Shown: piece by piece, positions 2,927 through 51,785 of the stretch
How the letters are laid out: every line of letters starts with the position of its first letter
Numbering within the stretch: position 1 is the stretch's first letter
Assembly: GCA_002791545.1 (NCBI GenBank)
Contig: PFXG01000079.1
Location: forward strand, 1-64,000
Direction: 5' to 3'
DNA from: Zetaproteobacteria bacterium CG_4_9_14_3_um_filter_49_83
GTDB taxonomy: Bacteria; Pseudomonadota; Zetaproteobacteria; Mariprofundales; Mariprofundaceae
Length of the DNA stretch: 64,000 nt
Program-made: the position numbers and the translations under genes
The notes under the pieces: model-generated
Seen by the model: only the letters and a program-made list of their open reading frames with translations
What the model was told of the DNA's origin: nothing
Databases searched by the model: none

Positions 2927-4456
2927 TTATGTATGTCGAATCTGTCTCTTATTGAAGACTGATGCACGTTGGGTGGATAGGTCAGGCTTGGCATGGGCAT
3001 AGGGTTTGAGAAAGTTCGGGATTTTCCGGCCCTCCAGTTTCAATAAATCTGCCAGCAAGGTAGCTGCCAGTGGCGCGGCTTCATGTTCTTGTTTGAGCAG
3101 GTATTGAAAAAGAAGTTCAGCCAGACGCTCCAGTGAAATTTTCCAGGTGCTTTGAGTTTGAGCGTAAATCCAGACGGAAAAGGCATGAAAGGCCTGAAAG
3201 ACATCGCCATCCGGCCAGAGCAGGGGCAGGCTTTGTTTGAAATTACCACTGTTGTAGAATAAATCCCAGAAACGGGCAAAACGTTTCATGCGCTGAATGT
3301 CATCAAAACTGAGCAGATCATTTTTCAGGATGTCGTATGGCGGCTTATCGCTATAAACCATGCCAAATGCCGCATCGTGGCGTACCAGCGAAGTGCCGGA
3401 AAGTTTTTTCAGGATGCCAATCTGAATTTCAGAATTCGTCATGGCACACAGACGATTCAGGTTTTCACCGAAACTGGCAAGTGACTCCCCCGGCAATCCG
3501 ACAATCAGATCAAGGTGCATATGTGCCGCTGTTTCATGGGCCAAAAAACTGATGTTTTGTTTTATCTTTGCAAGTTTCAGGTTGCGGTGGATGTTGCTGG
3601 CAACTTCGGGGTTAAGTGTCTGGATGCCGACCTCCAATTGCAGCGAGGCTGACGGAAATTGTGCGATGCGCGCTTTCAACGCCTCCGGAAAATGATCGGG
3701 GATCACCTCGAAATGTACAAAGCATGGACCATCGGGACTGGCGCATTTTTGCAGAAAGAAATCGAGCAGGCGACTGGCGACTTTGATGTTGAGGTTAAAT
3801 GTTCGGTCGATAAATTTGAAGCTGCGTACACCGCGTTGCCAAAGCGTTTCCAATGCATGCAAAATAATTTCAATATCGAAATGACGCACTTTTTCATCGA
3901 TAGATGACAAGCAAAATTCACACTGGAATGGGCAGCCACGTGATGCCTCAATATAAATATACCGATGGGCAACATCGTCATCCGAGTAATAGGTGTAAGG
4001 TAATTTGATGGCGAGCAAATCTGCCGGGGAAGCCTGAATGATGCGCGTGTTTGGCCGGAGCCCGCCCAGCAAAGCCTTACAAAGATCATGGAAGGCGGTA
4101 TCACCTTCCCCCTGAATAATGAAATCAGCAGCTTCAAAGTTGACTCGCATCGGTGAATAGCTGACCTCAGGTCCCCCCAGAATAACCATCGTCTCCGGTG
4201 ACACCTTTTTGATGGTGGCAAGAAGTTCGGCACACTCCAGCGCATTCCAGATGTACACGCCAAGGCCGATGATGGCCGGACGGCATGCCAGCAGTTTTTC
4301 GGCGACATCCTGAATGTTGTCGTTAATGGTAAATTCCCGGATGCAAGTCCGGCTTTCAAGTTCCTCCATATTGGCCAGAAGATATCGCAGACCGATGGCA
4401 CTGTGGGTGTAGCGCGCATTGAGAGTGCTCAGAATGATGTTGGCGGATGTGTTCAA
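2927..4456 (-). CDS. B12-binding-domain radical SAM protein (DUF4080 type)
   Basis: A 509-residue radical SAM enzyme. Residues about 1-130 look like the cobalamin-binding Rossmann domain (STLNARYTHSAIGLRYLLAN, GLGVYIWNALE, ILGGPEVSY). The radical SAM Fe-S motif CPFQCEFC (CxxxCxxC) follows near residue 175, and DUF4080-like sequence fills the C-terminus. Substrate unknown for this group. The start is TTG at 4456; no in-frame ATG precedes the conserved beginning, and the AAGGAA upstream is farther than usual. It sits 18 nt downstream of the ABC permease on the same strand and may be read through from the export operon, though a functional link is not implied. Confidence 0.85.
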   Translation of the reverse strand: MNTSANIILSTLNARYTHSAIGLRYLLANMEELESRTCIREFTINDNIQDVAEKLLACRPAIIGLGVYIWNALECAELLATIKKVSPETMVILGGPEVSYSPMRVNFEAADFIIQGEGDTAFHDLCKALLGGLRPNTRIIQASPADLLAIKLPYTYYSDDDVAHRYIYIEASRGCPFQCEFCLSSIDEKVRHFDIEIILHALETLWQRGVRSFKFIDRTFNLNIKVASRLLDFFLQKCASPDGPCFVHFEVIPDHFPEALKARIAQFPSASLQLEVGIQTLNPEVASNIHRNLKLAKIKQNISFLAHETAAHMHLDLIVGLPGESLASFGENLNRLCAMTNSEIQIGILKKLSGTSLVRHDAAFGMVYSDKPPYDILKNDLLSFDDIQRMKRFARFWDLFYNSGNFKQSLPLLWPDGDVFQAFHAFSVWIYAQTQSTWKISLERLAELLFQYLLKQEHEAAPLAATLLADLLKLEGRKIPNFLKPYAHAKPDLSTQRASVFNKRQIRHT

Positions 4457-42553: not shown

Positions 42554-42583
42554 CCCGATGGTGCGTTTTTAGAAATAGACAAC

Positions 42584-42609
42584 GAATGTGTAAATGTCAA
42601 GGCTGCCCC
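42584..42609. repeat. dispersed REP-like arm, second copy
   Basis: A 26-nt sequence matching 22 of 26 positions with the right arm at 18497-18522. Marks a shared short repeat family present at both accessory regions. Confidence 0.5.
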
Positions 42610-42670
42610 GGTTTTTTTTGCCCGTTTTTTGCTCTTTTTCCTCTAATTTTTCAGATGGAATCGGAACCGG

Positions 42671-42877
42671 GTCACCCATTATGCCGTTGTCACCCATTAT
42701 GCCGAAGTGATGCCAACTAAGGAGATTGTGTGAGAAAGATCAAGAAAGTGTTGCAACTGAAATGTGCCAGCAAGCGCCAAATTGCCCGCGCCACGGTGGC
42801 GGAGTGCGACCTGCGCAAGATCGCCAATGCCGGTTTGAGCTGGTCTCTGGCGACAGGCTGCTAGAGGCGTTGCTCTG
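42671..42877 (+). mobile_element. truncated IS21-family left end with istA remnant
   Basis: Two direct copies of GTCACCCATTATGCCG (42671-42686 and 42689-42704), period 18 bp, like the multiple terminal repeats of IS21 elements. AAGGAG then precedes a GTG at 42730, whose product begins VRKIKKVLQLKCASKRQIAR and includes AGLSWSL, matching the N-terminus of an IstA transposase (HTH). The frame stops at 42864; the +1 frame continues DRLLEALL, typical IstA sequence, before TGA at 42877. The rest of istA and istB are absent. Confidence 0.7.
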
Positions 42878-42878
42878 A

Positions 42879-42964
42879 AATGAACGCAGATAATCTCACC
42901 CCGACCTCGCCCCCACCACCAAACCCACCGCCCCCGAAAGCTGGCTAGCCTCGACCATCAAACC
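42879..42964 (+). pseudogene. folC: 5' scrap of a second folC with internal deletion
   Basis: 42879-42946 repeats the first 69 bp of the truncated folC at 49839 almost exactly (two mismatches and one indel). It then jumps, at 42948-42964, to a copy of the internal GLDHQ-coding segment found at 50366-50382 (16 of 17 match). So it is a donor-type folC with about 420 bp deleted, carrying a TAG after 22 codons. Not the resident folC at 39967. Confidence 0.75.
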
Positions 42965-43036
42965 AATAGTACCTACAATCTGGGCTGAGATTGAATGCTG
43001 GCGGGAGTAATCTGGCCTGACTGAAAGGGGGAGTCC

Positions 43037-46000
43037 ATGCACAACTTGTTGCTCGTTATCAGCAGGGAACTGCAAATAATTTTGCAAACCAATCTGTTGT
43101 TATTGGCGGATGATTGGTGGGAACGTCATGTTCTTGCTGTTTTGACTTATCAGCAACAGGAGAGGGTCAAACAATCCCGCATCAATGATTTTTCCTGCCT
43201 TGATCTGGCCGCCCTACTGCGCGTTCTCGATCAGAACTGGTATGAATTATCACAACAAAATCACTGGCCAAAAGAGGGGCGCAACTGGCTGAAAGAGGCG
43301 CAGACCATCCGAAACCGCTGGGCACACGCCACAATTACGGCGGTAGAGCCGCAGGATGTTTACCGTGATTGCGATACCCTTGAACGTCTCTCCGCCATGC
43401 TTGGAGCCAGCCACTCAACCTTGGCCAATATTGCTGAATACAAACAGCAGCAGTTGATTTTGCTTGCGCAGCCTCTCGCCCCATCTGTTGCCACTACCCC
43501 AACGATGCCCCCGCCCGTGAATGTTCCGGCTGGCCATCGCTTTGTAGTCGGCCAATTGTTATGCCTGAAAAGCAACCGCACCTGCCAATTCCCCGTGATG
43601 CAGGTGCTGGAGTCGCCAAACTCCGAACGTCGCTATCAGGTTTTTGAGAACAATAAAATTTCCCGTTACTACGAAAGCCAGTTGGAAGCTGTGGAGCACT
43701 CCCCGGATGAACGCTCCGTATTGCCGTTGGCTGATTTTCATGCCCGTCTGTCCGCGCTTCTGCTCACCTCTCCCGGCAGTGGCAACCTCTATTCGCTGCA
43801 TGCCGGACGGGTGCGCCATGTTCCCTACCAGTACCGCCCAGTCATCAAACTGCTTCATGCAGACCGTCCGCGCCTGCTGATTGCCGATGATGTAGGAGTT
43901 GGTAAAACAATTGAAGCAGGGCTGATTATCAAAGAGTTACAAGCTCGTTCCGAACTGGCTGCGGTACTGATTATCTGCCCCAAAGCCTTGGTTGCCGAAC
44001 AAAAATGGCAGAACGAGATGAGACGTTTCGGCGAATCGTTTGCACACCTTGATAGTGGAACATTGCGTTATTGTCTTGATGAAACCGATAAAGACGGCTC
44101 TTGGCCGAGTCGGTACGCCCGCTCCATCGTGCCGTTCTCTCTGCTCAACAGTGAGTTACTTGATGGCCAGAGCACAGGCCGAAAACGCAAAAAAGGGTTG
44201 CGCGACCTTGATCCACCACCGCACTTTGATCTGGTCATTGTTGACGAAGCACACCACATCCGAAATGCCGACACATGGACACATCGCTCTGTGCGCTTTT
44301 TCTGTGACCACGCCGAAGCGGTGATTTTTCTGACTGCCACGCCGATTCAGTTGGGCAATCAAGACCTGTTTACCCTGCTTTCGGTGCTACGCCCCGATCT
44401 GGTCATTGACCAAGCAAGTTTTGCTCAAATGTCCGAGCCGAATCAGTTCATCCATAACGCAGCGAACGCGATTCGTCGTCAATCTGCCGATTGGCAGCGG
44501 CAGGCCAAAAGTGCATTGCTTGAGGTCAGAACAACGGTTTGGGGAGACTTCTTTATTGCAGGCTCCCCCGAATTTCAACAGATATTGGACACGCTGGGCG
44601 ATAAGGCATGTTCAACCGGTGAACGTATTGCTCTGTTGCACAAGATAGAATCGCTCTCAACATTCAATGCGCTGATTAACCGCACGCGCAGGCGAGACAT
44701 CGGCGACTTCACCACCCGCAAGCCAGAGACGGTATCCGTTCTTTTCAGCAATTCTCAACAACAACTCCACGATCAACTGCTGAGGGTGGCTGGGAACATT
44801 TATTCCGTCACACACGGGCAGCAGATGATCCGTTTCATGTTGAGCACACTGCGCCGTCAAGCGGCCAGTTGCCTCCACGCCCTGCGCCCGATGCTTGAAC
44901 AGTGGTTGGCCAATAAATTCGATGAACTGGAACTGGCCGAAGAGGATGATTCTGACAGTGGCCCACCTTTGCAGTTGCCCTCGGTCAACGGGTTGCAACA
45001 GCAGATTCTTGAACTCATTGATGCTGCCAATGCGCTGGAAGAAGCCGACCCCAAACTGGACGCCTTCATCAACATCGTTCGCAACAAGCAGGCGCTGCCT
45101 AACAATAAGCTACTGGTTTTCACCAGTTTTCGGCATACGTTGTTCTACTTGGCCGAGCATCTGAAAGCTGCCGGGGTGCGTGTCGGACTGATGCACGGCG
45201 GAGTTGCCGACGATGAGCGGCGGGAGGTGCGCCAACGGTTTGCGTTGCCCAGAGATGAAGAGCATGCCTTGGATATTCTGCTTTCGACCGAAGTAGGCAG
45301 TGAAGGTCTCGACTTTCAGTTTTGCGATGCCATCGTCAACTACGACCTGCCGTGGAACCCGATGCGCATCGAGCAACGGATTGGCCGTATTGATCGTTAT
45401 GGTCAACAGAGCGAAACCGTGGCTATCTACAATTTGGTTACACCCGGAACCATAGATGCCGAAATCTACGAGCGGTGTTTATGGCGTATCGGCGTATTTC
45501 AGGCGGCACTGGGTGCCAGCGAAGAGATTCTTGGTCAAATTACCAAGGAACTTCATGATATATCAGAAAATCTCTCTCTGACTCCAGCCGAGAGGGAATC
45601 CCGCCTGCAACAACTGACCGACAACGAACTGCGTGCCATTCACGAACAAGAGACATTGGAGAAGCAGCAGGCCGAACTGTTCGGTTTGAGCGTGCCGAAC
45701 ATCAACGGAGAGATGGCAACTTCCGCTACCGGAGACTGGTTGTTACCCAACTCATTGCATCGGCTGGTTGCCCACTACCTGAACCACCGCTGCGGCAAGC
45801 CAGATGCGATTCTGGGAGAAAAGCCGCTCAAAACCCTCCGCCTCGATAAAGAGGCGCGCATGACGCTGCTTGATGAGTTCCGGCAACAAAAAGCAGAAGG
45901 GGCAGTTGCCCTGGAATGGGAGCGCTGGCTCAAAGGAACCGATCAACATTTGTCGGTCACGTTTGAACAGGATTGTGCTTGTGACCATGCCAGCGCCGCA

Positions 46001-46585
46001 CTGCTGCACGCTGGCCATCCCCTTGTGCAGGCGGCGGCCAGACATCAACCAGACAGCAACCCAATTTATGGCCTGTTCCGAGTCCCCGCTTTGGCAGATG
46101 TTGCGGCAGGTTGCTATCCGTTTGCCCTCTACCACTGGCACAAGCGTGGGGCACGAAACGACAATGAGATGGTAGCCGTGGTTGCTGATGCCCATATCGA
46201 AGAACATCTTTTCGATCTATTGGCCAAGGCAGATGAAGCCCGCGACGCGCAATTGCCCGACCAAGAGGCATTCGATGCGCTGGAAGCAAATCATCATCAG
46301 CGTTGGCGTGATGCGCTGGCCAACCATCAGGAGCAGAACCAGCAACGGGTAGCGCACCAGTTGCAAAGCCTTGAAGCGAGCCACAAGGCACGCTTGGCTC
46401 TGATTGCCGACAAGCTGCAAGGCGTCACGGATGAAAAGATCATTCGGATGCGCGAAGGCGAGCGCACCAACATAGAAGCCGATTATCGGAAGCGAAAATC
46501 ACAACTCGAAATTGCCGCGAAGAGTGCCGATATTCGTGCTGAGGCGGTGGCGTTTGGGGTGCTGGTTGTGGAGGAAGAGAGATGA
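43037..46585 (+). CDS. HEPN(Swt1-like)-SNF2 helicase
   Basis: 1182 residues. N-terminal about 10-120 resembles a Swt1-type HEPN domain, with the RX4H pair Arg92-Asn93...His97 in IRNRWAHA. After a Pro/Val linker, a SNF2/RapA-type helicase: Walker A GVGKT (287-291), DEAH (403-406), LTATP (432-436), and motif VI QRIGRIDRYGQ (780-790). The C-terminal 100 residues are charged coiled coil. Good ribosome site (AAGGGGGAG, 3 nt from ATG). It overlaps the GHKL gene by 4 bp. Likely nucleic-acid translocation coupled to a potential HEPN RNase; consistent with a defence role (inference). Confidence 0.88.
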   Translation: MHNLLLVISRELQIILQTNLLLLADDWWERHVLAVLTYQQQERVKQSRINDFSCLDLAALLRVLDQNWYELSQQNHWPKEGRNWLKEAQTIRNRWAHATITAVEPQDVYRDCDTLERLSAMLGASHSTLANIAEYKQQQLILLAQPLAPSVATTPTMPPPVNVPAGHRFVVGQLLCLKSNRTCQFPVMQVLESPNSERRYQVFENNKISRYYESQLEAVEHSPDERSVLPLADFHARLSALLLTSPGSGNLYSLHAGRVRHVPYQYRPVIKLLHADRPRLLIADDVGVGKTIEAGLIIKELQARSELAAVLIICPKALVAEQKWQNEMRRFGESFAHLDSGTLRYCLDETDKDGSWPSRYARSIVPFSLLNSELLDGQSTGRKRKKGLRDLDPPPHFDLVIVDEAHHIRNADTWTHRSVRFFCDHAEAVIFLTATPIQLGNQDLFTLLSVLRPDLVIDQASFAQMSEPNQFIHNAANAIRRQSADWQRQAKSALLEVRTTVWGDFFIAGSPEFQQILDTLGDKACSTGERIALLHKIESLSTFNALINRTRRRDIGDFTTRKPETVSVLFSNSQQQLHDQLLRVAGNIYSVTHGQQMIRFMLSTLRRQAASCLHALRPMLEQWLANKFDELELAEEDDSDSGPPLQLPSVNGLQQQILELIDAANALEEADPKLDAFINIVRNKQALPNNKLLVFTSFRHTLFYLAEHLKAAGVRVGLMHGGVADDERREVRQRFALPRDEEHALDILLSTEVGSEGLDFQFCDAIVNYDLPWNPMRIEQRIGRIDRYGQQSETVAIYNLVTPGTIDAEIYERCLWRIGVFQAALGASEEILGQITKELHDISENLSLTPAERESRLQQLTDNELRAIHEQETLEKQQAELFGLSVPNINGEMATSATGDWLLPNSLHRLVAHYLNHRCGKPDAILGEKPLKTLRLDKEARMTLLDEFRQQKAEGAVALEWERWLKGTDQHLSVTFEQDCACDHASAALLHAGHPLVQAAARHQPDSNPIYGLFRVPALADVAAGCYPFALYHWHKRGARNDNEMVAVVADAHIEEHLFDLLAKADEARDAQLPDQEAFDALEANHHQRWRDALANHQEQNQQRVAHQLQSLEASHKARLALIADKLQGVTDEKIIRMREGERTNIEADYRKRKSQLEIAAKSADIRAEAVAFGVLVVEEER

Positions 46586-49500
46586 CCATGGACTACGAGG
46601 CGATACGCCAGAAAAATATCAAAGAGTACGGCGAAGGAACGCGCCACCTCTCTTACTTCGCCGACATCTATTCGACCCGCACTCACTTTCTCTACGAGGT
46701 GCTGCAAAACGCCGAAGATGCACTGGCACGCCGACCAAACAACAGGCCGACTGGCTATGTGCACTTCCATTTGCATGATGATCGTCTTGAGATACGCCAT
46801 AACGGCGCGCCATTCACTGAACGCGATGTCAGCGGGATTTGTGGCATCGGCGAAGGAACCAAGGCAGGTGACTTTACCCAGATCGGCAAGTTCGGCATCG
46901 GTTTCAAATCGGTCTATGCCTACACCTTTTATCCACAGATTCACTCCGGTGGCGATCATTTCAGAATTTGCCGCTTCGTTGAACCACATGCGGTTGCCTC
47001 CATTTCAGAGGCAGAGACGCTTATTGTCTTGCCGTTCGATCAACCAGACAAACGACCAGCTTGGGCATTTCGTGCGGATGTACCCGCCAAAAGTGCGGTA
47101 CAAGAGATTGGCAACGCCATCAAAAAACTCGGCATTCGCACCATGCTGTTCCTGCGCCATATCGGAGAAATCAAATGGACTCTTCCAGACGGAAAGAGTG
47201 GCCACTTCATCAGAAGCGTGGAAACACTTCCGGGGCATGAAGACGCAAGAAAAGTCGAAGTGCTGGATCATGTTGGAAGCACCGAAGAGTGGCAGATATT
47301 CCAGCAATGTTGCGCAGTTCAGGATGCGGGTAAGGCACATGACGTAACTGTTGAGGCAGCTTATCTGGTCAAGGCAGGAGACGTAACCAGAGCCAGTGAT
47401 ACCGAGTTGGTTGTCTATTTTCCAACGGAAAAGAAAACCGAACTAGGCTTTTTGATTCAGGCTCCGTTCAAAACCACCAAAGCAAGAGACAACATCAAAA
47501 GCGATGACCCAGCCAATCGCCAGATGATTGAGGCGCTGGCTAAATTGACCGCATCCAGTCTAGAAAAGTTGCGCGACCTTGGCCTGCTGAGTGTGGCGAG
47601 CTACAACGCCTTGCCGTTGCGCGGACAGGATTTCCCAGTAGGCAGTCTGTTCCGCCCGATTTACGACAAGGTGCGCGAAGCGTTTCAAACCCAGCGTTTG
47701 CTGCCTGCGCACGGCGGTGGATTTGTCTGTGCCAGCAAAGCAAAGCTGGCTCGTGGTAAGGAGTTGGTTGAACTGTTTTCGCCGGAGCAGCTTGGCACGC
47801 TGTTTGGTAAGGAAAAACTGGCATGGCTCGATTCGTCCATTACAGAAAGCGGGTCTGCTGCGAATTTGCACACCTACCTGATAGGCAAGAAAATTTCCTC
47901 ATGGTCAAACGAATGGGAGTTGGAACCGCTGAAAGAAGGCATTGAAGTTACCCCTCAGGATATTGCCTCGAAATTGATGCCATATTTTTTTGGGCAACAA
48001 TCCATTGAATGGCTGATCCGATTTGTAATATATGCAAGTAATGGTTCTCAAGAAATTAAACGCACGCCATTGGTCAGATTGATTGATGGTAAGCATGTTG
48101 CTGTGCCATCCGATACGAGCGCAAAACGCCCTGCGTGGTTTGTCCCAAAAAAGGCTGACTATTTTGACCTGTCGGAATTCCCGCTGATACATCCCAATCT
48201 GGCTGACAATGAGGGAGTGAGAAAATTCTTGGAGAAGGAAGGTATCCGGGAGATTGATGCAGCAGCTATTGTGGAGCGTGCCATTCTTCCACAATACAAA
48301 GGCCGAAATACTGTATTTGACGAGACCAATTACCGCGAACATCTACGCCAGATTCGCAAGGCTTATGCAGAGAGTAACGACAGCACGAAACAACAGCTTA
48401 AAACCAGCTTGAATAATGCCGCATGGGTTGCATGCGTTCATGCTAGTGGCAACGATCCTGATAAGATTGTTTGGAGGCGTGCGGATGCAACCGACGTATT
48501 TGCGAGGACTGCCGATCACGAAAGTTGGTTTCTTGGGTTGGACAGTGTGGGGGCATATTTTCTTCACCCGTCGGTAAATGATGAACTCAATAGTTTTGCC
48601 TCTAGCTTGGTCAAACCCGCTACTGTGCTGACTCAGAATCTGCATCCATCGGAATACACAGCACAACTATCTTCCTGCTATGGCAAACACAAGCAAGGGC
48701 TAAACGGATTCAAGCCCGACGCGACGGTTATTGGTTTGCAAGCAGCACTTGATAGTTGGAACACAGAAAGAGCCAGCATCCTCTGGAACATTATGTTATC
48801 CGCTCCTCGCATCATCAGTGGCGAAACGCAAAGCGAATCAAATCGCCAACGATTGGATGCTGCCCCAAAGAATCTCGAATACACCGAAGTTGGCAATCTA
48901 TGCCGTGACCGGGCTTGGCTACCCGACAGGAATGGAGAGTGGCGCAAGCCCAGTGAGCTTTTTCTTTCCGACCTGCCGGATGGATTTGATACGACTTCTA
49001 TTCGCGCCAAGGAGGTGGCTGATAAGCTGGGGATGAAGCGTCCTGTATCCAGCGAAACCATTGATGCCTTGGGATTCAAGGACGAAGAAGAATTGCGTAG
49101 GGCGCAAGCAATAGTTCAATCACCAGATGAGTTTCGGGAATTTGAAGAGTTCAAACGACGCAGGCAAGAAGAGGGTAATTCCAAACCAGCTTTGCCAGAC
49201 AAAACCTCTCCCGCCCCCCAAAGGCGTGAGGTGAAAATAGCCGAAGAGGCTCGCAACACACCAGAGAAAACGCAAGAGACCAGAGAGCGAACCGTTGATC
49301 CAGACTATAGCGGAGCGCAAGGTGACGCGAGAACCTACCTTAAACATCAGTACACGAATAAAGAAGGAGCAATGTTCTGCCAGCTCTGCCAAGCCCCGCA
49401 GCCTGTGATGTTGAATAGCGAGCCTCATTTTGAAGCGGTGGATTGCGTGGACGGCATCAACGCCCACCACAAACAGAACAAGTTGGCACTCTGCCCCAAT

Positions 49501-49701
49501 CATGCCGCGATGTATAAAAACGGTGGTTTGACTCCCGATACCGTTCAGATCGCTATATGGGAATGTGATGGTCAGAGAATTCCGTTAAATCTAGCAGGTA
49601 ACCAGGTTGAGCTATATTTCACGCAGCAGCATCTTGGCGATTTGCGCGCAGCACTGACATCCAAACATCAGCAACCGGCTGAAATCGCACCGTTGGAGTG
49701 A
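46582..49701 (+). CDS. Hsp90/sacsin-like GHKL ATPase with C-terminal zinc/HNH-like domain
   Basis: 1039 residues. GHKL fold: N-box ELxxNAEDA with Glu39, Asn43 and Asp46, G1 box HNGAPF (73-78), G2 GKFGIGFKSVY (102-112). This pattern (YEVLQNAEDA) is that of sacsin-type N-terminal ATPases found in anti-phage proteins. The middle has no recognised domain. After an Arg/Glu-rich linker, the C-terminus has Cys933, Cys936, His949, Cys955, His962/His963, Cys971 and His974: a treble-clef zinc domain resembling HNH nucleases, though the catalytic His position is altered. ATGA overlap with the helicase gene shows equal production. Not matched to a named system here. Confidence 0.85.
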   Translation: MTMDYEAIRQKNIKEYGEGTRHLSYFADIYSTRTHFLYEVLQNAEDALARRPNNRPTGYVHFHLHDDRLEIRHNGAPFTERDVSGICGIGEGTKAGDFTQIGKFGIGFKSVYAYTFYPQIHSGGDHFRICRFVEPHAVASISEAETLIVLPFDQPDKRPAWAFRADVPAKSAVQEIGNAIKKLGIRTMLFLRHIGEIKWTLPDGKSGHFIRSVETLPGHEDARKVEVLDHVGSTEEWQIFQQCCAVQDAGKAHDVTVEAAYLVKAGDVTRASDTELVVYFPTEKKTELGFLIQAPFKTTKARDNIKSDDPANRQMIEALAKLTASSLEKLRDLGLLSVASYNALPLRGQDFPVGSLFRPIYDKVREAFQTQRLLPAHGGGFVCASKAKLARGKELVELFSPEQLGTLFGKEKLAWLDSSITESGSAANLHTYLIGKKISSWSNEWELEPLKEGIEVTPQDIASKLMPYFFGQQSIEWLIRFVIYASNGSQEIKRTPLVRLIDGKHVAVPSDTSAKRPAWFVPKKADYFDLSEFPLIHPNLADNEGVRKFLEKEGIREIDAAAIVERAILPQYKGRNTVFDETNYREHLRQIRKAYAESNDSTKQQLKTSLNNAAWVACVHASGNDPDKIVWRRADATDVFARTADHESWFLGLDSVGAYFLHPSVNDELNSFASSLVKPATVLTQNLHPSEYTAQLSSCYGKHKQGLNGFKPDATVIGLQAALDSWNTERASILWNIMLSAPRIISGETQSESNRQRLDAAPKNLEYTEVGNLCRDRAWLPDRNGEWRKPSELFLSDLPDGFDTTSIRAKEVADKLGMKRPVSSETIDALGFKDEEELRRAQAIVQSPDEFREFEEFKRRRQEEGNSKPALPDKTSPAPQRREVKIAEEARNTPEKTQETRERTVDPDYSGAQGDARTYLKHQYTNKEGAMFCQLCQAPQPVMLNSEPHFEAVDCVDGINAHHKQNKLALCPNHAAMYKNGGLTPDTVQIAIWECDGQRIPLNLAGNQVELYFTQQHLGDLRAALTSKHQQPAEIAPLE

Positions 49702-49702
49702 G

Positions 49703-49843
49703 ATGGTCATGAAATTGGATGTTATCGAGGCCGTTGTTTTGGAAACCGGCAGGTTCCGCCTTACTTGGCCGGGGGAACTCGATGTATGCCCGAATGCGAT
49801 GCGCCAACACATTGCGGCATCCGGTGAGTGGGTTATGGAATGA
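49703..49843 (+). CDS. 46-residue coupled small protein
   Basis: An ATG one base after the GHKL stop encodes MVMKLDVIEAVVLETGRF...WVME, ending TGA at 49843, overlapping the truncated folC start (ATGA). GGAG lies 4 nt upstream. One Cys, mostly beta-like hydrophobic/charged alternation, no signal peptide. Could be a third component of the unit or a chance frame; the tight coupling on both sides is the main evidence. Confidence 0.45.
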   Translation: MVMKLDVIEAVVLETGRFRLTWPGELDVCPNAMRQHIAASGEWVME

Positions 49844-50523
49844 ACGCAGATAAACTCACCCCGACCTTGCCCCCCACCACCAAACCCACCGCCCCCGAAA
49901 GCTGGCTCGAAGCACTGGGCCAGCCCGCTGCCGACCGCGACTATCGCCCCGGCCATGAGCGGATGTTGGCGTTACTGCACCACTTTCCGGCGGGGCAACC
50001 CAAGCTGCGCATCCGGGTGGCGGGCACCAACGGCAAAGGGTCAACGAGCAACTTTGTGGCGGCGGCTTTGCAGGCGCTGGGCTACAGGGTGGGACTTTTT
50101 ACTTCGCCGCATATTTCGCAGTTCAACGAGCGTATTCGCATCAACGGAGAGCCGGTGGCCGATGAGCTGCTGGCAGAGAAGTTGAGCCAGATGGTGCCGA
50201 CAGCTTTGGAGATTGGTGCCTCCTATTTTGAGGTGGCGACGGCGTTGGCGCTGCGCTGTTTTGCCGAAGCTGCGATTGAGGTGGAGGTGTTCGAAGCCGG
50301 AGTCGGTGCCCGGCTCGATGCCACCACCGCACTGCCCTCCGATCTGGCTCTGCTGACCCCCATCGGCCTCGACCATCAAGCCTGGCTTGGCGACACCTTG
50401 ATCTGGCAGGCAACCAGGTTAAGCTATATATTTCAAGCCGCAGCATCTCAGAGACTTACGTGCGGTATTGCAATCAATGACATCAACATTGGAGATTTGA
50501 ATGGACATCGAACGATTCAATGA
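49840..50523 (+). pseudogene. folC: truncated second folC (donor type)
   Basis: Encodes the first two thirds of a FolC: ESWLEALGQPAADRDYRPGH, RVAGTNGKGSTSNF, GLFTSPHISQFNERIRING and GLDHQAWLGDTLIWQA, clearly homologous to the resident FolC. Homology stops near 50411; the frame then drifts to unrelated sequence and ends at 50523. The C-terminal Mur-ligase domain is missing, so it cannot be functional. Third positions are visibly richer in G/C than the resident gene, indicating a different donor. Its first 69 bp recur at 42879. Confidence 0.85.
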
Positions 50524-50899
50524 GCGCAAACAAGAGTTGTCGACCGCCGTTCAGCGGTTGGGCGAGGCTTGTGCTCAGCCTTTCTCCAGTTTCATCCGCG
50601 ATTCGGTGATTCAGCGTTTCGAATTTTGCTGGGAGCTTGCATGGAAAACCTTGCGCTTGAAGCTGGAGGCAGAGGGGGTGTTGGTCAACACGCCGCGCGA
50701 AACCTGGCAGCAGGCTTTGCAAGCTGGACTGATCCAGGACGGCAACGCATGGACGGAAGCGCAGAAGAAACGCAACCTGACCAGCCACACTTATGACGAG
50801 AAGCTGGCCGACGATGTTTACAACTATGTGCTGCAACAGGGATTGCCGCTGTTCCGCAAACTGGCCGCCGAGGCCGCAAAATGGCAAGCAACCAACTGA
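50501..50899 (+). CDS. nucleotidyltransferase substrate-binding protein (HI0074 family, HEPN-like)
   Basis: 132-residue all-helical protein of the HI0074 type, with FSSFIRDSVIQRFEFCWELAWKTL and DGNAWTEAQKKRNLTSHTYDEKLA, in which RNxxxH resembles the HEPN motif (R-N-L-T-S-H). Partner of the overlapping MNT gene (19-bp overlap); the two form a HEPN/MNT toxin-antitoxin unit. GGAG lies upstream of the ATG. Starts inside the truncated folC frame. Confidence 0.85.
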   Translation: MDIERFNERKQELSTAVQRLGEACAQPFSSFIRDSVIQRFEFCWELAWKTLRLKLEAEGVLVNTPRETWQQALQAGLIQDGNAWTEAQKKRNLTSHTYDEKLADDVYNYVLQQGLPLFRKLAAEAAKWQATN

Positions 50900-51216
50900 C
50901 CTTCGGTTTGTCCGATAGCATCCTCGGCGACCTGCGCCGGGTGTTTTCGGCTTATCCGGAAATCGAACAGGTGTTGATTTTCGGCTCACGCGCAAAAGGG
51001 GCGTTCAAAGATGGTTCGGACATTGACCTAGCTGTGATTGCGTCGGCCATGAGTGACCAACGCTTTACCCAGTTGTGGAATGAACTGGATGGCCTGCCGC
51101 TGGTGTTCAAGATGGACGTGCTGCACTGGGACAGGCTGGGCAATGAGCGCCTGAAGAACAAGATCCCCGGCGAAGGCAAGGTGCTTTATCCTTCGCCCAC
51201 GGCGAATTTGTTCTAA
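50881..51216 (+). CDS. MNT-type minimal nucleotidyltransferase
   Basis: 111-residue nucleotidyltransferase (HI0073 type). Catalytic motif GSRAKGAFKDGSDIDLAVI (GSxAxG...SDIDL) about residues 36-55. In HEPN/MNT modules the MNT protein AMPylates the HEPN toxin to neutralise it (family knowledge). Overlaps its partner by 19 bp. A weak terminator follows. Confidence 0.9.
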   Translation: MASNQLTFGLSDSILGDLRRVFSAYPEIEQVLIFGSRAKGAFKDGSDIDLAVIASAMSDQRFTQLWNELDGLPLVFKMDVLHWDRLGNERLKNKIPGEGKVLYPSPTANLF

Positions 51217-51407: not shown

Positions 51408-51785
51408 ATGTATTCATCCTCACTACATCCATGGCCGGTACTCAGAGGCCTTCTTCTTGAGCTATCCAGCTACGATGTCCCCATGGTTGTAGACCGTGCC
51501 GGGCTTATGGTTGATTGGACACTTTCATCGCAACAGGACTTTTCCAACAAAATGCGCATCGCTGCATATAGACCACGGATCGATGCGGCATATGAGTCCG
51601 GGTCAGCTTTGACATTTACACATTTGTTGGATCAAATTCGGGATGTCTGCGGTTTTACTTATCAATTTGATTATCATGTATCAGCAAAGAGTAAGAGGGG
51701 CCTTTTTTCGCGGATTTATTGTCTGTCAGTTATTGTGTATCTGGATAAATACAAACATCTTACACCTGTTTCTCTGTTTGGATAA
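51408..51785 (+). CDS. hypothetical protein (possibly truncated)
   Basis: A 125-codon frame from ATG 51408, WPVLRGLLLELSSYDVPMVVDRAG and RIAAYRPRIDAAYESGS being the most protein-like part; after about residue 80 the sequence turns low-complexity and may be out of its original frame. No ribosome site. Looks like the 5' part of a larger gene that has been cut. Family not recognised. Confidence 0.35.
   Translation: MYSSSLHPWPVLRGLLLELSSYDVPMVVDRAGLMVDWTLSSQQDFSNKMRIAAYRPRIDAAYESGSALTFTHLLDQIRDVCGFTYQFDYHVSAKSKRGLFSRIYCLSVIVYLDKYKHLTPVSLFG

Follow-up and report, generated by a model that had tools for sequence, protein, structure and literature searches.

Two very large genes in a stretch of zetaproteobacterial DNA raise the question whether a helicase fused to a HEPN domain and a GHKL ATPase together form a defence system and, if so, which of their domains would act on the invader. 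The original prediction saw in them a compact, little-described defence pair in which the helicase senses or moves on foreign nucleic acid, while either the HEPN domain or a C-terminal HNH-like domain cuts. We analysed the locus and its relatives computationally; "the window" denotes the whole stretch of 64,000 nucleotides.

The gene pair and its HEPN-SNF2 protein

Both large reading frames, their coordinates and the ATGA overlap joining them were recovered as first described: the HEPN_Swt1 and SNF2 helicase gene occupies positions 43037-46585 of the plus strand (1182 amino acids) and the sacsin/Hsp90-like GHKL ATPase gene positions 46582-49701 of the same strand (1039 amino acids). Chance as an origin of these features is ruled out by the profile matches and by the strict conservation seen in relatives, which confirms that the HEPN-SNF2/GHKL observation itself is real. 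Rfam and tRNA searches of the window gave no matches.

The HEPN domain (43106-43393, plus strand) corresponds to residues 24-119 of the first protein, which match the Pfam family HEPN_Swt1 (PF18731, E 8e-13). Its active-site motif RNRWAH (43310-43327) conforms to the Rx4-6H pattern of HEPN RNases, and all 12 HEPN sequences compared share RNRW[AV]H, with R92, N93 and H97 unchanged throughout. Searching solved structures with the HEPN profile returned no significant relative, and in other families HEPN_Swt1 domains can be non-catalytic (PMC3710099). Judged by its sequence, the HEPN RNase is the likeliest candidate effector of the window copy. The SNF2 ATPase core (43868-45403, plus strand) extends from SNF2-rel_dom to Helicase_C (Pfam, E 2.5e-20 for SNF2 and 1.3e-21 for Helicase_C), and its motifs are invariant in 20 relatives. 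All motifs ascribed to this protein beforehand were found, i.e. R92-x4-H97, DVGVGKT (residues 284-291), DEAH (403-406) and QRIGRIDRYGQ (780-790). Profile searches revealed homology to DrmD (E 2e-121), BrxH (6.6e-61), HmaA (8e-46) and DpdE as well as BrxHII, identifying the helicase as RapA-/DrmD-type. Its predicted structure (pLDDT 75, pTM 0.61, with unreliable interdomain placement) was matched over its length by RapA, the best solved fold.

The GHKL ATPase and its C-terminal domain

The second protein matches the Pfam family SACS (E 1.2e-18) and the NCBIfam sacsin-type ATPase model (84 bits, cut-off 50). Its GHKL nucleotide-binding domain (46660-46971, plus strand; SACS/P_loop_sacsin) contains the conserved Bergerat residues, E39, N43, D46, G75, G102, G105 and G107 being invariant in 22 relatives; the motifs LQNAEDA and GKFGIGFK, on which the GHKL assignment had been founded, are invariant or nearly so in the same set. 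Over the N-terminal and middle domains the predicted structure (pLDDT 80, pTM 0.56, interdomain placement again unreliable) matched Hsp90-type folds, and among solved structures sacsin and Hsp90 come closest to the ATPase.

The Cys/His cluster noticed at the C-terminus is present and related to HNH domains (ScoMcrA, E 1.7e-7), defining a degenerate HNH-fold zinc-binding domain at 49357-49506 of the plus strand. V953/D954 and A975 occupy the His positions of ScoMcrA, D954 standing at the position of the general base and A975 at that of the last His; the Asn is kept. Nearly all SNF2-linked relatives have lost the general-base His; among those aligned, L038 alone keeps it. A GHKL protein without SNF2 partner (L042) retains the H-N-H pattern. 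As both catalytic His residues are replaced, cutting by the HNH-like domain is unlikely in the window copy, and we rejected this part of the original prediction.

Distribution of the pair

The neighbourhood search that had been proposed as a check was based on 86 GHKL loci with room upstream, comprising the best 80 loci of a scan in which one genome represented each species, plasmid matches and one further genome. Of these 86, 32 are preceded immediately by an SNF2 gene in the same orientation, showing that the pair is conserved in other genomes in the same gene order. In raw counts, which ignore relatedness, the upstream SNF2 gene accompanies 21 of the 25 GHKL proteins with a CxxC...LC tail versus 11 of the 61 others. 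The genome loci cover 14 named bacterial phyla, and plasmid copies occur in Ensifer, Rhizobium and the archaeon Methanomethylovorans. Two IMG/VR contigs carry a HEPN-SNF2 gene followed by a GHKL gene; phage records gave one partial match, in an unannotated fecal contig. At a Thioalkalivibrio locus (L031:2441-13126) one HEPN-SNF2 gene is accompanied by two successive, diverged GHKL genes.

Within the phylum the distribution is patchy, any GHKL relative being found in 8 of 299 genomes, and two genomes (G004 and G024) lack the cassette though they belong to the same genus as the cassette-bearing G016. A separate search detected a HEPN-SNF2 relative at E ≤ 1e-100 in 4 of the 299 genomes, and the same four contain the GHKL gene or its C-terminal part. 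In one of them (G170) just this part is present, joined in frame with the HEPN domain and the first lobe of the helicase in a fusion that looks like the product of decay. At a locus in a genome of the same family (L019:570-2495) the HEPN domain, the first helicase lobe and the GHKL C-terminal domain are fused in frame into 641 amino acids, probably a deletion remnant; this decayed copy also has an MNT/HEPN pair (3048-3804, identified by eye).

The position upstream of the helicase

Fewer than half of the cassettes have a HEPN domain fused to the helicase in the sequence examined, so the core must act with other effectors or with none. Where HEPN is missing, the gene next to the helicase is PIN-like (L030, just under the Pfam cut-off), GIY-YIG (L038), a BrnT RNase toxin (L032), NERD-UvrD (L090), RecD-like (L043) or DruE-like (L039), and the remaining cassettes have a regulator-like gene or nothing clear before the helicase. 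Not all of these genes encode nucleases, some being helicases or a regulator. Their variety suggests, in a small sample, that the slot before the helicase may be an exchangeable effector position. The HEPN label requires at least 5-6 changes on the SNF2 tree and 5-7 on the GHKL tree. On two Rhizobiaceae plasmids a small gene (L002:7280-7834 and L003:9285-9815), sigma-factor-like by eye, overlaps the start of the helicase gene; we rejected it as a separated HEPN, given this likeness and the lack of a Pfam match.

The island in the window

The flanks described in the original prediction, mobile-element scraps and a HEPN/MNT pair, were likewise recovered. Two IS-end-like inverted repeats of 43 nt (42580-42622 and 51587-51629, 81% complementary) bracket an island of roughly 9 kb and match about 20 other sites of the genome, some of them close to contig ends. 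Within the island, all on the plus strand, a putative transposase scrap resembling the N-terminus of IS21 IstA (42730-42865, frame read directly) and a scrap of a second folC, folC' (42876-42965), precede the pair. The latter matches 49836-49902 and 50366-50383 (score 122, shuffle maximum 26) and gave no match to the intact resident folC. Behind the pair lie a 5' fragment of folC' (49828-50430, 201 amino acids) and a remnant of the 3' end of a second GHKL copy (50401-50489), which aligns to 49589-49674 (score 64, shuffle maximum 26). With 61% identity to the genome's own folC and up to 66% to folC of relatives, the fragment is, to judge by these values, not a recent copy of the resident gene. 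Foreign folC fragments thus stand on both sides of the cassette, 6960 bases apart, and the simplest history would be a tandem duplication of folC' and cassette followed by decay of the second copy.

A separate, toxin-antitoxin-like pair consists of a HI0074-type HEPN/NTase-binding protein (50501-50899; PF08780, 4.4e-30; TIGR01987 above cut-off) and its MNT nucleotidyltransferase partner (50881-51216; PF18765, 7.9e-16; MntA model below cut-off). The genes flanking the pair are trp/accD/folC/Na-H antiporter and HEPN/MNT/DUF523/PfkB/mraZ. We rejected the cassette as part of the folC locus, as relatives have trp-accD-folC without it and the copy in a second Zetaproteobacteria genome (G016) is not beside folC.

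Defence genes around related cassettes

The 124 ORFs sampled around cassettes matched 222 PADLOC models at 1e-20, compared with 7 models for 97 housekeeping ORFs from one bacterial family, that of the window, which include the window's other genes; since the models overlap, e.g. among helicases, this comparison is a contrast between neighbours and housekeeping ORFs rather than a test. As such it agrees with the defence-island surroundings that the original prediction had set as a check. A sister clade of GHKL-DUF3883 proteins is found in conserved operons with an adenine methylase, a BPTD_3080-like restriction helicase and a UvrD-Cas4 protein (L060, L070 and 20-odd related loci). On a conjugative plasmid of Ensifer the cassette is followed directly by a RecB-like nuclease with a MkoA/MkoC-like helicase part (L002:14147-17536), and on a Sulfuricurvum plasmid (L005:9231-12937) a NERD-domain gene and a GHKL-DUF3883 gene are followed by a complete Qat anti-phage system.

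Proposed function and alternatives

The module is real, mobile and widely conserved, and is most likely defensive. We give a probability of about 0.5 to the more specific reading, drawn from sequence, that the pair is a mobile two-protein module against phages or other invading DNA that acts by HEPN-driven RNA cleavage and abortive infection. The two proteins would form a complex. Its SNF2 motor, of the RapA/DrmD type, is probably the part that engages nucleic acid, be it foreign or stalled; the GHKL ATPase, Hsp90-like, is probably an ATP-driven clamp or switch, and the catalytically dead HNH-fold zinc domain probably an adaptor binding nucleic acid or a partner. Recognition would release the N-terminal HEPN domain, which would cut RNA and halt translation. 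What stands of the proposed compact defence pair is thus a conserved, mobile helicase/GHKL unit in defence-rich surroundings; HNH cutting falls away, and "little-described" has to be qualified by work from 2008 and 2013. A broader idea is tentative, and we would sooner bet against it than on it: the SNF2 motor and the Hsp90-like ATPase might form a defence core that is widespread, has no name and acts as a general sensor to which different effectors can be attached (HEPN, by fusion, in the window copy; PIN, BrnT, GIY-YIG or NERD elsewhere), with the Hsp90-type ATPase gating the effector and the HNH domain of the GHKL protein decayed into an adaptor.

The same domains could serve a restriction-like system, in which SNF2 motor and GHKL clamp loop and translocate DNA. 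The cut would come from the C-terminal HNH domain or from a nuclease whose gene lies elsewhere, with HEPN as a mere backup. Operons of GHKL ATPase, SF2 helicase and nuclease have been proposed to be restriction-modification systems (PMC2292703), the sister GHKL clade is accompanied by methylase and restriction helicase, and the H-N-H pattern persists in L042. The substituted His residues in the window and in nearly all SNF2-linked relatives, together with the lack of a neighbouring methylase that would protect the cell's own DNA, make this reading unlikely. It is rather improbable, too, that the pair is a fragment or reduced form of DISARM, of a BREX-related (BR/Hma) system or of Tiamat, although DrmD and TmtA are the top profile matches and BR helicases share the RapA-like architecture, with Type-1 BR systems using HEPN fusions (PMC12839542). 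The pair recurs by itself as a two-gene unit, and no DrmA/B/C, DUF499 ATPase or methylase lies beside it; the helicase scores 362.5 bits against a cut-off of 610 for the DrmD equivalog NF038317 and 157.6 against 950 for NF038318, and the TmtA match covers no more than 572 of the 1302 positions of the profile.

Outside immunity, the kinship of the ATPase with sacsin and Hsp90 and of the helicase with RapA would fit a stress or proteostasis module, in which a chaperone works with a remodeller of RNA polymerase and HEPN limits translation in stress, a role that has been proposed for the HEPN domain of sacsin itself (PMC3710099). Patchy occurrence, mobile context, defence neighbours and wide transfer across phyla speak against such a function, to which we assign a small probability. 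Even less probably, the pair is an addiction or toxin-antitoxin module, in which the GHKL protein would keep a HEPN toxin in check and so stabilise the element that carries both. The toxin domain, the ATGA coupling, the mobile context and the toxin-like genes in the same slot of some relatives would suit it, but very large, energy-dependent partners are unusual for such modules and many cassettes keep helicase and GHKL without a recognisable toxin.

Comparison with known systems

Membership of the pair in DISARM or Tiamat was rejected, the homology being partial only. The pair shares with DISARM the RapA-like SNF2 helicase (DrmD, E 2e-121) but differs by its fused HEPN, its score below the equivalog cut-off and the absence of DrmA, DrmB and DrmC beside it; no Drm model was matched at 1e-20 among 97 ORFs that include the window's other genes. 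Tiamat is a validated single-gene anti-phage system, whereas in our pair a conserved helicase gene immediately precedes the GHKL gene. In its N-terminal and middle parts the ATPase is homologous to TmtA (E 7.5e-63; 211 bits over residues 27-606), but of the TmtA profiles, which are 1063-1782 positions long, the N-terminal part alone matches (positions 35-606 of 1302 in the best model). The ZorD model gave 35.7 bits against a cut-off of 1500, and no ZorA or ZorB genes lie beside the pair, so that the partner genes of both DISARM and Zorya are absent here, as originally noted.

With BR/Hma and the BREX type 3 helicase BrxHII the pair has in common a Swi2/Snf2 helicase of RapA-like layout and an N-terminal HEPN effector in the system. 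In the BREX-related systems described in 2026, however, HEPN is fused to the DUF499 ATPase (Type-1 BR; PMC12839542), whereas here it is on the helicase and a GHKL protein takes the place of DUF499; neither protein of the pair is a DUF499 ATPase or an N6-methyltransferase, and no such gene adjoins the pair in the window. A term search of that paper for Hsp90, GHKL, HATPase, sacsin and DrmD gave no hits (PMC12839542).

Closer precedents are the widely transferred operons of Iyer et al. (2008), in which a GHKL (MORC/paraMORC) ATPase gene stands beside an SF2, sometimes SWI2/SNF2, helicase and nucleases, and for which a restriction-modification-like function with DNA looping was proposed (PMC2292703). 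By their description, our pair is set apart by its sacsin/Hsp90-like GHKL domain, its degenerate HNH tail, the lack of a methylase and the HEPN domain on the helicase. Anantharaman et al. (2013) described HEPN domains of the Abi2/Swt1 group and HEPN-SWI2/SNF2 fusions in restriction-modification-like contexts, and the accessible part of their paper describes no pairing with a sacsin-like GHKL gene (PMC3710099). We found no paper naming the HEPN-SNF2/GHKL pair in the open-access literature searched. GHKL-helicase-nuclease operons and HEPN-SNF2 fusions are thus already known, and the pair with a sacsin-like GHKL is unnamed. In it a GHKL ATPase resembling that of Tiamat and an SNF2 helicase resembling DrmD and RapA, both mechanistically obscure, are tied to a defined candidate effector whose active site comprises two residues, which makes the role of Hsp90-like ATPases in bacterial immunity directly testable. 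Sacsin of animals is known to combine HEPN with an ATPase of this type, and the pair supplies a bacterial example in which HEPN is coupled to a sacsin-like ATPase.
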